A stretch of DNA of 38,902 nt, taken from contig CAIOTH010000088.1 in assembly GCA_903861145.1 (NCBI GenBank), positions 1-38,902 of the forward strand, in the 5' to 3' direction. How positions within the stretch are numbered: the first letter of the stretch is position 1; each line of letters begins with the position of its first letter. The DNA comes from an uncultured Bacteroidota bacterium (GTDB lineage: Bacteria > Bacteroidota > Bacteroidia > Chitinophagales > LD1). The notes beneath the pieces are model-generated. The model was not told the DNA's origin. It saw nothing but the letters and a program-made list of their open reading frames with translations, and did not search any database. The translations under genes were made by a program, and so were the position numbers. This document shows, in pieces, positions 2-3,061 of this stretch.

Positions 2-178
2 GCATCTTCCGATCCATCGCACGTATTCAAAGGATTAAGAATGGCCGGCCGTACCGGTGGAGAAATTATAGAAGTATTAAACCTAAAGGTTGTAAAAGTG
101 ATGGCTGAAGAGAACATCTTGCTTATTAAAGGAGCAGTTCCCGGTGCAATAGGTGGATACGTAATTATTGAAGGGTAG
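2..178 (+). CDS. rplC: 50S ribosomal protein L3, C-terminal end (partial)
   Basis: This is the last 58 codons of ribosomal protein L3, an early-assembling 23S rRNA-binding protein; the 5' part lies outside the window. The frame reads [15 protein letters not shown] near its start and [15 protein letters not shown] near its end, which match the C-terminal L3 signatures (VFKGxRMAGRxG and LLxxKGAVPGxxGG). The stop is TAG at 176-178. In most bacteria rplD follows within a few dozen bases. Here a terminator follows instead, then three genes on the opposite strand, and rplD begins only at 2429. Identification is secure even though only the tail is visible. Confidence 0.95.
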
Positions 179-219
179 TTTGAAGGAAACTTCAAATCCT
201 GATAAAGGAAAGTGAAAAG

Positions 220-243
220 AGGCCCGGTTTACCGGGCCTTTTT
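220..243. terminator. Rho-independent terminator after rplC, probably bidirectional
   Basis: A perfect 8-bp GC-rich stem (AGGCCCGG/CCGGGCCT, loop TTTA) is followed by a T-rich run on the plus strand. It lies between the rplC stop at 178 and the end of the convergent gene at 248. The minus strand also has a T-rich stretch beyond the stem, so it may serve both genes. Its presence means that rplC transcription ends here and does not run into rplD. Confidence 0.85.
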
Positions 244-247
244 CATT

Positions 248-628
248 TTATGCAACTACCAGTTTTGGAATCGAAGTAGCTACCAAAATGGAATTGTTGA
301 ATGTAATTCCATCCCTGAAACTACGGAAAGGAGCCGAGCGTATCACCGGAAAACTAATATAAAGTAATAATAGATTTAATAAGAGTGCAATCACCTCTAA
401 TGCCTTTGATTGCGACTTGCGACATAACCGGGTAATCACAAATGTTACCAGGCAAATTAATGCCATTAAAACTATTTCGGCTATTAATAAAAGGTCAACC
501 AGGCCGCCAATATCTGGATGCCCGCTGGCGAACGTTAGTGCTGGTACTAATAAAACCAGCAGCGTGAATATTCTCTTAACGCTTAAATTTGGATAGGCTA
601 ATCGAAGTTCAGTTAATAGTTTATCCAT
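248..628 (-). CDS. small membrane protein of unknown function
   Basis: I do not recognise this 126-residue protein. It has three likely membrane-spanning segments: about residues 19-36, 41-67 and 76-96. The rest is short: a basic N-terminus (MDKLLTELRLAYPNLSVKR) and a tail of about 30 residues. Arg/Lys residues sit between TM2 and TM3. It is the last of three minus-strand genes lying between rplC and rplD. Its start overlaps (ATGGATAA) the stop of an upstream open frame at 621-821. No catalytic motif can be seen. The open frame and hydrophobic pattern support a real gene, but without homologs this is a moderate call. Confidence 0.55.
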   Translation of the reverse strand: MDKLLTELRLAYPNLSVKRIFTLLVLLVPALTFASGHPDIGGLVDLLLIAEIVLMALICLVTFVITRLCRKSQSKALEVIALLLNLLLLYISFPVIRSAPFRSFRDGITFNNSILVATSIPKLVVA

Positions 629-821
629 ATGCTATATTACTAAAGAAGAATGAATTATTTGAACCAGACAGATAGCCGACATTTATATAGTTAAGGTCGA
701 CCTGCGAGGTCAATTCGTTACAAACGGAAATATCGTTATTAGATTGAGATGATGTGCTAGGTGATGGACCGTCTGTGGTCAATGTCTGGAAAGTAATATA
801 AGCATAAACGCTATTTAGCGC
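621..821 (-). other. open frame without ATG between two minus-strand genes
   Basis: About 66 codons are open in this frame, from just after an in-frame TGA to a TAA that overlaps the start codon of the 126-residue membrane protein (ATGGATAA, 628-621). It also overlaps the end of the zinc-ribbon gene, in another frame. There is no ATG; a TTG lies inside. The predicted product is rich in Ser, Asn and Thr. It could be a small translationally coupled gene, the remnant of a decayed gene, or chance. Frame length and coupling geometry are the only support. Confidence 0.2.
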
Positions 822-1044
822 TCAATACCTTTTCAGTGGCCCGTGCATCAATACTTTTGTAGGTAGAAGTATTACAGGCTTTACAATAATATTTTTGGTA
901 GTAGTACTTCCCCGAACTTAAAATACACATAAACTTCTCATAAAAAGTGCGATGCATCCTTTTGGTATTATGCGTTCCGCAATCTTTACATGGCACTGGG
1001 GGGGCCAATCGCGTTTTTGGTTTCTCTCTGTAAAGTGCTGCCAT
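811..1044 (-). CDS. small zinc-ribbon protein of unknown function
   Basis: This 77-residue basic protein carries two CxxC knuckles, C19-K-D-C22 and C54-K-A-C57, about 31 residues apart. That is the layout of a zinc ribbon coordinating one Zn with four cysteines. The segment between them is rich in Tyr, Lys and Arg (KYYYQKYY), compatible with nucleic-acid or protein binding. No enzyme motif is present and I cannot assign a family. A consensus promoter box lies about 95 bases upstream, giving a leader with a perfect hairpin. It is the middle one of three minus-strand genes in the broken S10 operon, and probably shares a transcript with the membrane protein gene downstream. Confidence 0.6.
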   Translation of the reverse strand: MAALYREKPKTRLAPPVPCKDCGTHNTKRMHRTFYEKFMCILSSGKYYYQKYYCKACNTSTYKSIDARATEKVLSAK

Positions 1045-1100
1045 GTTACAAGTTAAGCTTTGTAATTCAAACCGGTCTCAGTACTGAAGGATTTTATTAA

Positions 1101-1119
1101 AATTAACCCAAGGTTAATT
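1101..1119 (-). promoter_or_regulatory. hairpin in the leader of the zinc-ribbon gene
   Basis: A perfect 8-bp stem with a 3-base loop (AATTAACC-CAA-GGTTAATT on the plus strand) lies between the promoter box at 1140-1147 and the start codon at 1044. On the minus strand it is followed by TTTAATAAAAT, so it may be a weak attenuator or simply a stable 5' leader element. Function is inferred. Confidence 0.35.
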
Positions 1120-1139
1120 CTTATGCACCTTAATTGTAC

Positions 1140-1169
1140 CAAAGCTATTAAATTTAGTTACATAATCCA
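1140..1169 (-). promoter_or_regulatory. Bacteroidota-type promoter for the zinc-ribbon gene
   Basis: Read on the minus strand, TAGCTTTG (1147-1140) is an exact TAnnTTTG -7 box, with a TTG 20 bases upstream as the -33 element. Transcription would start near 1133, leaving a leader of about 90 nt before the ATG at 1044. Confidence 0.5.
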
Positions 1170-1263
1170 ACAAAAGCGTTGTATTAAGTTACACCCATTC
1201 AAAACCGGGTGTGGATTTAATTGCCCAGTGCAATATACGGCTATGATAGTGCTATAGTTACAG

Positions 1264-2310
1264 CTACATACCTGTTAAAATTTTCAAGCTGCATTTAACT
1301 AATTCGCCCATTGTGCGGGCGGCAATGAATGTCTCATTTTTGTAATGATCGGCCAGTTCCTTGCCTAATTGACGTACCTTTTCTGCCGATGAAATCGTGT
1401 CGCGGGCCATAACATCGGTTAAATGGTTTAACCTGAAGTGCGAAGAAATACTCCGCCTGGCAATTAATGTCCGTTCCTCCTTTTGGTATTGTCTGATGGT
1501 TTCAGGGGTAAGCAGTTTTAGCGTCAGCTGCACCAATTCAACATTCTCTTTAAAAAACTGCGGTAAATAAAGCGTCTTTCTCCCCTCGTAACTTTGCTGG
1601 TCAAAATCTATGGGTCTTATCCTAAACTGCACCTCTTCAAAATCGGGCGTAATGTCAAACACGTAGTTGTACGAACGCATGTCTCCCAGCAACCTTACAA
1701 AACAGCGCTCATTAAACTTTACAAACTCTTTGGCAACGCGCACTTTGTTAAACTCCGGGTTTTCCAGGTACGAATGTATAAACTGGTCGCCGGGTATACC
1801 CGCAATATGCTCTTCAACCAGCGTATGGTCATCAACAAAGTAGTTAATCCGCGCCGGCGAAAGTATATGCTCCAGTTCCAGGCCATAAATACGCGATGCA
1901 TCTGCCTGTTTAATATAGAAATAGTCGTAGTTATCGTTAAAGTCGTTTACAATCTTAATTCTAAACGGGTTCGAATTGCCAAAGGTGCAATAATCAATCC
2001 GCTCAACATGCAGGTGGGTATGTACCGATGCATCGCCCCCGCTTCTTAATATAGAGTATATCTGTTTTAGCCCTTCGTGTATGTGGGTCAGGTCGTTTTG
2101 GGCGTAAAGTGCCGCTTCCCAAAGTGTATCGTTTCCGTTTTTATCGCGTATGGCAATGGCGCCGCTAAAGTGCTTCAGGTCGGCATAAGTAACGGGTAAT
2201 TCAATTTCCCGCCGGTTTTCGGCCAGGTACCACTGTAGTTCCTTATTTACGGGGTATATGTTTTTCTTCTTGGTAATGACTTGTTGCGTGTAGTTTTTCG
2301 GCTTTTTCAT
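1264..2310 (-). CDS. degenerate kinase-like (APH/HipA-fold) protein, function unknown
   Basis: This 348-residue protein has no signal peptide or TM segment. Three motifs in the right order suggest a protein-kinase-like or aminoglycoside-phosphotransferase-like fold: a lysine in FYIK (131-134) that could be the ATP-binding Lys, the block GDMRSYNYV (209-217) resembling the HGDxxxxN catalytic loop with Asp210 and Asn215, and IDFD (234-237) resembling the metal-binding DFG/IDFE element. The usual His before Gly-Asp is replaced by Leu. A segment IAGIPGDQF (169-177) is also typical of such kinases. The C-terminal 100 residues look helical. It is divergently oriented to rplD, with 118 bases between the start codons. 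Substrate cannot be predicted; the fold assignment is inference from motifs. Confidence 0.6.
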   Translation of the reverse strand: MKKPKNYTQQVITKKKNIYPVNKELQWYLAENRREIELPVTYADLKHFSGAIAIRDKNGNDTLWEAALYAQNDLTHIHEGLKQIYSILRSGGDASVHTHLHVERIDYCTFGNSNPFRIKIVNDFNDNYDYFYIKQADASRIYGLELEHILSPARINYFVDDHTLVEEHIAGIPGDQFIHSYLENPEFNKVRVAKEFVKFNERCFVRLLGDMRSYNYVFDITPDFEEVQFRIRPIDFDQQSYEGRKTLYLPQFFKENVELVQLTLKLLTPETIRQYQKEERTLIARRSISSHFRLNHLTDVMARDTISSAEKVRQLGKELADHYKNETFIAARTMGELVKCSLKILTGM

Positions 2311-2349
2311 GCATACTGGCTTTGGCAGCGTATTTTTTTAAGGGAAATA

Positions 2350-2380
2350 TTTGTAACTCTGTTGATAAAGTCTATTTTTG
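2350..2380 (+). promoter_or_regulatory. consensus Bacteroidota promoter for rplD-rplV
   Basis: TTTG (2350-2353), a 19-base spacer and TATTTTTG (2373-2380) match the housekeeping consensus TTTG-N19-21-TAnnTTTG of Bacteroidota exactly. Transcription would begin at about 2386, some 40 bases before the rplD ATG. It is the only strong promoter seen between the rplC terminator and rplV, so it explains how the separated half of the S10 operon is expressed. Confidence 0.75.
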
Positions 2381-2428
2381 CGTTCCCTTTTTGGGGAAGG
2401 TGTATTATACCGAATAAATTTTTGAATT

Positions 2429-3061
2429 ATGAAGGTAAAAGTTTTAAGCAAAGACGGTGCAGAAACAGGGAGAGAGTTAAATCTTTCCGATGATATTTTT
2501 GGTATTGAGCCTAACGACCATGCAGTGTATTTAACTGTTAAGTCATACTTAGCTGCTCAACGTCAGGGAACTCACAAAACAAAAGAAAAGTGGGAAGTTT
2601 CTCGTACAACTAAAAAAGCATTCCGTCAAAAGGGAACAGGTGGTGCCCGTCGTGGTTCAATGAAATCGCCGTTGGTTAAAGGTGGTGGCCGTGCTTTCGG
2701 TCCTAAACCTCACTCTTACGATATTAAGATTAACAAGAAGGTAAAAGATATCGCTAAAAAAAGCGCTCTTACTTATAAGGTAAAGGAAAACAACCTGATA
2801 GTGGTTGAAAACTTTGAAATGGCCGCTCCAAAAACAAAAGATTTTGTAGCAGTATTAAAAGGCCTTAACCTAACAGGTACAAAAAGCGTATTTGTGGTTG
2901 AGGGAGCCGAAAAGAATACCTTGCTTTCAGCACGTAACGTTCCTTCGGTTTCAATTACCGAGGTAAACCACCTTAACATTTACGATATTATGAATTGCAA
3001 AAAGCTTGTATTAAGCGAAGCTGCAGTTAAAGCAATTGAATCTAATTTCTCGAACAACTAA
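2429..3061 (+). CDS. rplD: 50S ribosomal protein L4
   Basis: L4 binds domain I of 23S rRNA and lines the peptide exit tunnel. The 210-residue length is normal. The long tunnel loop is seen at about residues 45-95, with the family signature KAFRQKGTGGARRGS followed by a basic Gly-rich stretch (KGGGRAFGPKPHSY). The C-terminal half (KSVFVVEG, LNIYDIMN, KLVLSEAA) is typical. Translation from the ATG at 2429 gives the usual N-terminus MKVKVLSKDG; there is no Shine-Dalgarno sequence, as expected in this phylum. In other bacteria L4 can repress its own operon; here it is the first gene of its transcript instead of the third, so any such control would act on a different leader. Gene identity is certain. 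Confidence 0.98.
   Translation: MKVKVLSKDGAETGRELNLSDDIFGIEPNDHAVYLTVKSYLAAQRQGTHKTKEKWEVSRTTKKAFRQKGTGGARRGSMKSPLVKGGGRAFGPKPHSYDIKINKKVKDIAKKSALTYKVKENNLIVVENFEMAAPKTKDFVAVLKGLNLTGTKSVFVVEGAEKNTLLSARNVPSVSITEVNHLNIYDIMNCKKLVLSEAAVKAIESNFSNN

Follow-up and report, generated by a model that had tools for sequence, protein, structure and literature searches.

The S10-spc run of ribosomal-protein genes is among the most conserved gene orders of Bacteria, and co-regulation is the usual explanation for this conservation. Passages in two published accounts describe the break-up of operons in other phyla (PMC8046335, PMC3879981). Here, we analyze a stretch of 38,902 nt (the window) from an uncultured Bacteroidota bacterium (Chitinophagales, LD1), in which the run is interrupted between rplC and rplD. 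The window is the start of contig CAIOTH010000088.1 (C88) of a 4.7-Mb genome in 174 contigs that is 98.65% complete. The stop codon of rplC lies at 176-178 and rplD starts at 2429, leaving a gap of 2250 nt with three open reading frames (ORFs) on the minus strand, as an initial annotation made from the sequence had described. That annotation saw three genes splitting one operon; we find instead that the split is standard in the family, which also shares two further breaks. Very probably, the S10-spc superoperon was dismantled throughout the family into units with promoters of their own, which were later shuffled, and the window shows one of the resulting joints.

Breaks shared across a family

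We collected the neighborhoods of rplD, rplC, rpsC, and rplE from relatives of the window genome (G000), which belongs to genus g1 of a family (f1) whose members are mostly uncultured Bacteroidia, represented by 25 genomes in four genera (g1-g4). No family genome has a canonical joint at rplC|rplD, rplV|rpsC, or rplX|rplE. The first is broken in all 24 genomes with rplC: rplD is 1.8 to 2.6 kb away in three (G000, G006, and G011) and absent within 2.6 to 14.5 kb in 20, while G008 has only 348 nt past rplC. The second is broken in 19 of the 19 genomes with rplV, comprising 14 with at least 4 kb past that gene and five with only 62 to 618 nt. The third is broken in 17 of 17, with rplE at 2.2 kb in G006, no rplE within 3.7 to 11.3 kb in 15, and only 1.6 kb (1629 nt) of sequence past rplX in G016. 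In G011, rplE lies about 5 kb past rplX, and in G005, the rpsC block is followed by an inverted rplE block. A fourth break, map|infA, affects part of the family: map is missing upstream of infA in 14 of the 20 family loci with enough sequence, is kept there in six genomes (G000, G006, G007, G008, G011, and G013), and is present in five of five loci outside the family. The positions of the blocks vary, and their flanking genes differ in most family species. In the near-complete G018 (10 contigs), a single contig carries rplD and rpsC at a distance of 444 kb, and rplC is on a different one.

Outside the family, these joints are kept. We found rplC and rplD adjacent in 11 other families of the order. 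We also searched 296 Bacteroidia genomes and judged adjacency on 40 regions chosen among the matches listed; these are not a random sample, as 32 were taken one per family where possible (rplC-only matches) and eight were already known to have rplC and rplD adjacent. The two genes are neighbors in 39 of the 40 (31 of 32 without the eight), which agrees with the earlier view that such a break is rare. The single exception, G225 (L308, family f73), has no rplD within 8.2 kb past rplC. Likewise, rplV-rpsC is intact in all 38 judgeable outside genomes (one more ends at a contig edge and one lacks the gene), and rplX-rplE in 35 of 35.

Within the genome of the window, the run is divided among four contigs. 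Block A (rpsL-rpsG-fusA-rpsJ-rplC) lies mostly on contig C159 and ends in the window, where block B (rplD-rplW-rplB-rpsS-rplV) follows. Contig C133 carries block C (rpsC-rplP-rpmC-rpsQ-rplN-rplX), followed by an acetyltransferase-like ORF that was named by eye, and contig C90 carries block D, from rplE to rplQ. The initial annotation missed the second break in the window, rplV|rpsC: rpsC sits on C133 and was not found in the remaining 33.9 kb of the window 3' of rplV. The features of the window are as follows.

2..178, plus strand: 3' part of rplC, which closes block A; its translation continues rplC of contig C159
216..243, plus strand: rho-independent terminator-like hairpin past rplC, 12 pairs with a T tail
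248..628, minus strand: INS1, hydrophobic ORF of 126 aa (ORF only)
811..1044, minus strand: INS2, 77 aa, with two CxxC pairs; G006 and G011 have relatives in the same position
1264..2310, minus strand: INS3, kinase-like, 348 aa, from a broad protein family of Bacteroidota and Verrucomicrobia
2350..2381, plus strand: predicted promoter of block B, TTTG-N19-TATTTTTG, with TGTTGATAA at 2360-2368
2382..2428, plus strand: leader of rplD, with the start region and two short hairpins, both predicted (2383-2398 and 2399-2411)
2429..3061, plus strand: rplD (L4), head of block B; Pfam PF00573
3082..3375, plus strand: rplW (L23); Pfam PF00276
3465..4289, plus strand: rplB (L2); Pfam PF03947 and PF00181
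4331..4600, plus strand: rpsS (S19); Pfam PF00203
4658..5050, plus strand: rplV (L22), end of block B; Pfam PF00237
5082..5108, plus strand: terminator-like hairpin past rplV

The terminator that had been proposed past rplC is present as a hairpin whose sequence is kept in both sister species, G006 and G011; taken alone the call is weak, with 12 such sites in the scan against 6.2 in shuffles. The window opens at a contig end inside rplC, and its first 141 bases are an exact copy of the end of C159, most simply explained as the k-mer overlap of the assembler. In G011, one contig (L045) carries fusA-rpsJ-rplC, INS2, INS3, and rplD-rplV, and in G006, contig L041 is unbroken from inside rplC to beyond rplV. 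Misassembly, a concern of the initial annotation, is thus an unlikely cause of the layout, because two sister species have the same order in separate assemblies. The contrast that it expected with relatives holds only halfway, because relatives share the split but only two of them share the inserted genes as well.

Other features were noted around the blocks and elsewhere. On C133, there are two copies (81% identical) of a gene for a 208- to 215-aa helix-turn-helix or small-terminase-like protein (L037, 2352-2978; L036, 6740-7384), one of them just upstream of rpsC. In genus g2, rpsD has become the tail of the rpsC-rplX block (L204, L207, and L215), away from its usual place in the alpha operon. 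Past rplX in G006 (L210) and G011 (L211), two small same-strand ORFs (88 and 84 to 94 aa) lie 3' of the acetyltransferase-like gene and, by eye, look like a toxin-antitoxin pair. Finally, the rplJL-rpoBC run also seems to be broken in G000, where 6.7 kb with unrelated ORFs separate rpoB from a solitary rplL that has a motif promoter to itself (L321; G000:C36:40689-41063 and 47775).

Promoters, spacers, and leaders at the block heads

The -33 part of Bacteroidota promoters is TTG. All block heads fit the Bacteroidota sigma promoter as judged from their sequences, with a TTG box, a spacer of ~19 nt, and TAnnTTTG, the last being an element described in the text of PMC6414381. The rplD, rpsC, rplE, and infA blocks begin with such a predicted promoter plus a start region, in the pattern TANNTTTGCNNTCC; at rplD in the window, this reads TTTG-N19-TATTTTTGC-GTTCC. 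The G000 genome has 33 matches to TANNTTTGCNNTCC against 11 for the reversed control. Fourteen of them precede rpsL, rpsF, rpmI, rplL, rpoB, rpmH, rplU, rplD, infA, rplE, rpsP, rpsT, rpsC, and efp; five precede tRNA genes, one precedes prs, and 13 precede other genes or nothing recognized. Allowing one mismatch, the pattern is found across family loci at rplD (18 of 19), rpsC (21 of 21), rplE (27 of 27), and infA (21 of 21), 36 to 151 nt before the start codon among the loci listed. In other families, where the genes nearly touch, it is absent even within two mismatches from rplD (0 of 11), rpsC (0 of 10), and rplE (0 of 10). The rpsL promoter, at the head of the old operon, matches with at most one mismatch in 16 of 18 loci inside the family and in six of seven outside, where it is looser. 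We infer that these promoters drive the separated blocks.

The spacers of block-head promoters often share a 9-mer, TGTKGATAA, at a fixed place. A stricter pattern, TTTGNAANTNTGTTN{8,11}TANNTTTGC, has three matches in 4.7 Mb (rplD, rpsC, and rplE) and none when reversed, although it was derived from the three sites that it finds. The exact form TGTGGATAA is present in 16 of the 87 block-head promoters, all in g3, g4, or one g2 genome: in rpsC (4/4) and rplE (9/9) of g3 and g4, in rplE of G024, and in infA of g3 (2/2). A one-mismatch form occurs in 15 more, namely rplD (7/13), rpsC (4/14), and infA (2/14) of g1 and infA of g4 (2/2). Within the examined family DNA, 15 of 20 copies of TGTGGATAA begin precisely 13 nt upstream of TANNTTTG and another begins 15 nt upstream, compared with none of eight in other families; for TGTTGATAA, the 13-nt spacing holds for 14 of 21 copies (two duplicate places removed) and for none of 11 outside. 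These fractions come from DNA centered on block loci and are not genome rates.

An ungapped comparison of the spacers of 18 of the 20 promoters (rpsP and tRNA-Glu were left out) showed that rplD, rpsC, rplE, and infA share a mean of 11.8 of 19 positions, against 6.2 for other translation promoters, and theirs is the only one of 3060 possible quadruples to score so high. This similarity fits common descent and a shared binding site alike. In g3 and g4, the 9-mer is conserved between flanks that vary, which favors a site over descent from a duplicated promoter. TGTGGATAA is the exact reverse complement of TTATCCACA, given as the DnaA-box consensus in part of a review (PMC8203912), and the window copy, TGTTGATAA, differs from it by one mismatch. 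Neither rps nor rpl genes came up in a term search of that review's text. DnaA may lie behind the match, but so may a different factor or the origin of these promoters from a single duplicated one. That a DnaA-box-like 9-mer (TGTGGATAA or TGTTGATAA) between the promoter boxes acts as a shared operator, re-coordinating rplD, rpsC, rplE, and infA through one DNA-binding protein, possibly DnaA, and so tying their transcription to the replication cycle, is an unlikely extension. A site is disfavored by the distribution of the 9-mer, which is found in none of the 16 g1 rplE promoters and is missing from nearly all g2 promoters. The 9-mer is found in none of 18 rpsL promoters.

Some block heads may also encode structured leaders. 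The rplE leaders (L219, which is G000:C90, and L226-L252) contain a hairpin whose core, ACGGTTGG(G)AATCGT (ACGGUUGG-AAUCGU as RNA), is nearly invariant and whose outer pairs vary. In an alignment of 26 of the 27 leaders, 95.5% of cells are paired and covariation is 0.191 compared with 0.059 in shuffled alignments, a value reached by none of 500 shuffles. However, double-sided changes fall on only two pairs (14 of 15 cells on one of them), as many as 72 of 500 shuffles reach this, and the pair types do not exceed shuffles. Single-sequence fold z-scores range from -0.55 to -2.77. Rfam gave no match up to an E value of 1 for the four rplE loci scanned, and only subthreshold matches for the rplD region and for contigs C159 and C133. 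The rplE hairpin is therefore a candidate leader RNA only. The fold of the rplD leader (z-score of -1.44) is not significant alone.

Origin of the gap and its genes

A tree of 14 proteins (2690 columns, 35 genomes; G004 was left out for lack of data) recovers the family as monophyletic and places G000, G006, and G011 together inside g1, beside G012 and G013. Only in these three genomes is block A near block B, with rplC within 2.6 kb of rplD. On parsimony, this closeness is most likely a secondary approach. In G007 and G013, too, INS3 adjoins rplD, with rplC located elsewhere in both; INS3 stands before rplD in five g1 genomes, and this adjacency is confined to g1. Furthermore, a sigma-factor gene and a small ORF lie past rplV in G000, G006, G007, G013, and G017, and past rplC in G010 (L190, 2370-4117), which suggests a past inversion between the end of block A and that of block B.

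We infer the following order of events. In the ancestor of the family, the str-S10-spc run would have been cut into separate transcription units at rplC|rplD, rplV|rpsC, and rplX|rplE, with a later cut at map|infA in part of the family only. A separate strong Bacteroidota promoter, like those at other translation genes, would have driven each freed block, and block A in the window would end in the putative terminator. With the constraint of co-transcription gone, inversions and translocations could have moved the blocks, and block A would have come secondarily to a site on the upstream side of INS3 and rplD, which were already paired. INS1-INS3 would be the genes that adjoin this site.

Several observations weigh against this history. 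The secondary approach rests on parsimony in a lineage that shuffles fast, and G006 also has block C 2.2 kb before block D. G019 lacks the motif before rplD, and infA motifs, less exact, also occur in two of five outside genomes. Our view of the family comes almost entirely from draft metagenome assemblies, and one of its genomes, G016, also has a contig (C328) with the canonical order. We consider C328 a probable contamination, because its proteins are only 42 to 66% identical and G016 has A and C blocks of its own, and we left it out of the counts.

It is possible, if doubtful, that the window instead preserves an early stage, in which genes were inserted at rplC|rplD (and at rplX|rplE) and the old order was kept in this clade and lost in all others. 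Blocks A and B (G000, G006, and G011) and blocks C and D (2.2 kb apart in G006 and ~5 kb in G011) retain ancestral order and strand within the same clade, a paired closeness that two chance moves explain poorly, and part of a study of other phyla reports insertions between operons followed by full separation (PMC8046335). Yet the tree then demands loss in every other lineage, including the sister G013 and genera g2 to g4, and INS3 is beside rplD inside g1 only.

None of the three genes in the gap has a Pfam or NCBIfam family over the cut-off; INS2 has a subthreshold match to IS66 (E = 0.006, 15.7 bits against a cut-off of 180). By eye, INS1 has three membrane segments; a tblastn search of the rplC-rplD interval of G006 and G011 did not find it. 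Among the family loci examined, INS2 turned up only in the clade of G000, G006, and G011. The kinase-like label given earlier to INS3 fits its AlphaFold2 model (mean predicted local distance difference test score, 90.2; predicted template modeling score, 0.87): nearly all of the 50 Foldseek matches listed are protein or lipid kinases (best E = 4.8e-5), with query TM-scores of only 0.22 to 0.42. The K, GDM..N, and DFD motifs conserved in its alignment look kinase-like on visual inspection. We thus regard INS3 as having a predicted kinase-like fold. An INS3 relative is present in 25 of 30 family genomes, mostly away from ribosomal blocks.

We also considered an insertion of a mobile element into the operon and rejected it: no transposase or integrase exceeded the cut-off in the Pfam and NCBIfam searches, in agreement with the initial annotation, and relatives lack the canonical joint anyway.

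It is very unlikely that the inserted genes are a ribosome-tied functional unit recruited into the operon; the initial annotation had raised a relation to ribosome or translation control as a possibility. INS3 does touch ribosomal blocks in two contexts: beside rplD in five g1 genomes and, in G021 of another genus, ~110 nt past the rpsC block on the same strand, there with an in-frame TAG. Given these separate contexts, adjacency of INS3 to a ribosomal block arose at least twice. However, we found INS3 relatives in 167 places, their titles naming Bacteroidota, Verrucomicrobia, and a single Acidobacteria, and among the 80 of these that were retained, only seven loci also match a block gene: five from the window's own genus, L082 with rpsL ~3 kb off, and one with a 29%-identity match to fusA. 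The other 73 have none of the tested block genes nearby, many of these loci being short. In addition, INS1 is missing from the gap in both sister species, INS2 was found in one clade only among the family loci examined, and INS3 is mostly elsewhere. INS1-INS3 are probably bystanders, passengers of the site.

Finally, that the breaks are an artefact of assembly or binning, with the blocks adjacent in the living cell, is extremely unlikely despite the draft assemblies, the contig end at which the window starts, and the one foreign-looking canonical contig, given breaks common to 24, 19, and 17 genomes of four genera with long unrelated flanks, block-head promoters absent outside the family, and the few contigs of G018 and G009.

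Relation to known systems

A family that lives with the S10-spc run in at least four separately promoted and shuffled pieces is a natural experiment on the purpose of operons. Whether stoichiometry is kept via a common promoter signature, leader RNAs, or a shared operator is testable. If the TGTKGATAA site does bind DnaA, the family would tie ribosome synthesis directly to the control of replication. Among the titles and abstract openings covered by our literature search, we found no description of this split, nor of family-fixed internal breaks with matching promoters and a common spacer element.

The closest described systems each share part of this pattern. To the Bacteroidota promoter (TTG/TAnnTTTG), the block heads of the family add a conserved start region, GCNNTCC, and many also add the spacer TGTKGATAA. 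The candidate leaders resemble ribosomal-protein leader RNAs in having a short predicted hairpin between the promoter and the first ribosomal gene; among the rows listed in a table of PMC7247131, L13 and S4 leaders occur in Bacteroidia and none is at the head of rplD or rplE. For Aquifex aeolicus, a figure legend reports a novel arrangement of ribosomal operons (PMC3879981). This likeness concerns the overall arrangement, in another phylum. Published cluster break-ups, in the portions of text available, are similar in that a conserved cluster is broken and then separated, with insertions beside break points. There, however, 75 of 115 rearrangements part one operon from another without disrupting either, whereas in family f1, the breaks lie inside S10 (rplC|rplD and rplV|rpsC) and spc (rplX|rplE), are fixed across the family, and come with a promoter at the head of each block.

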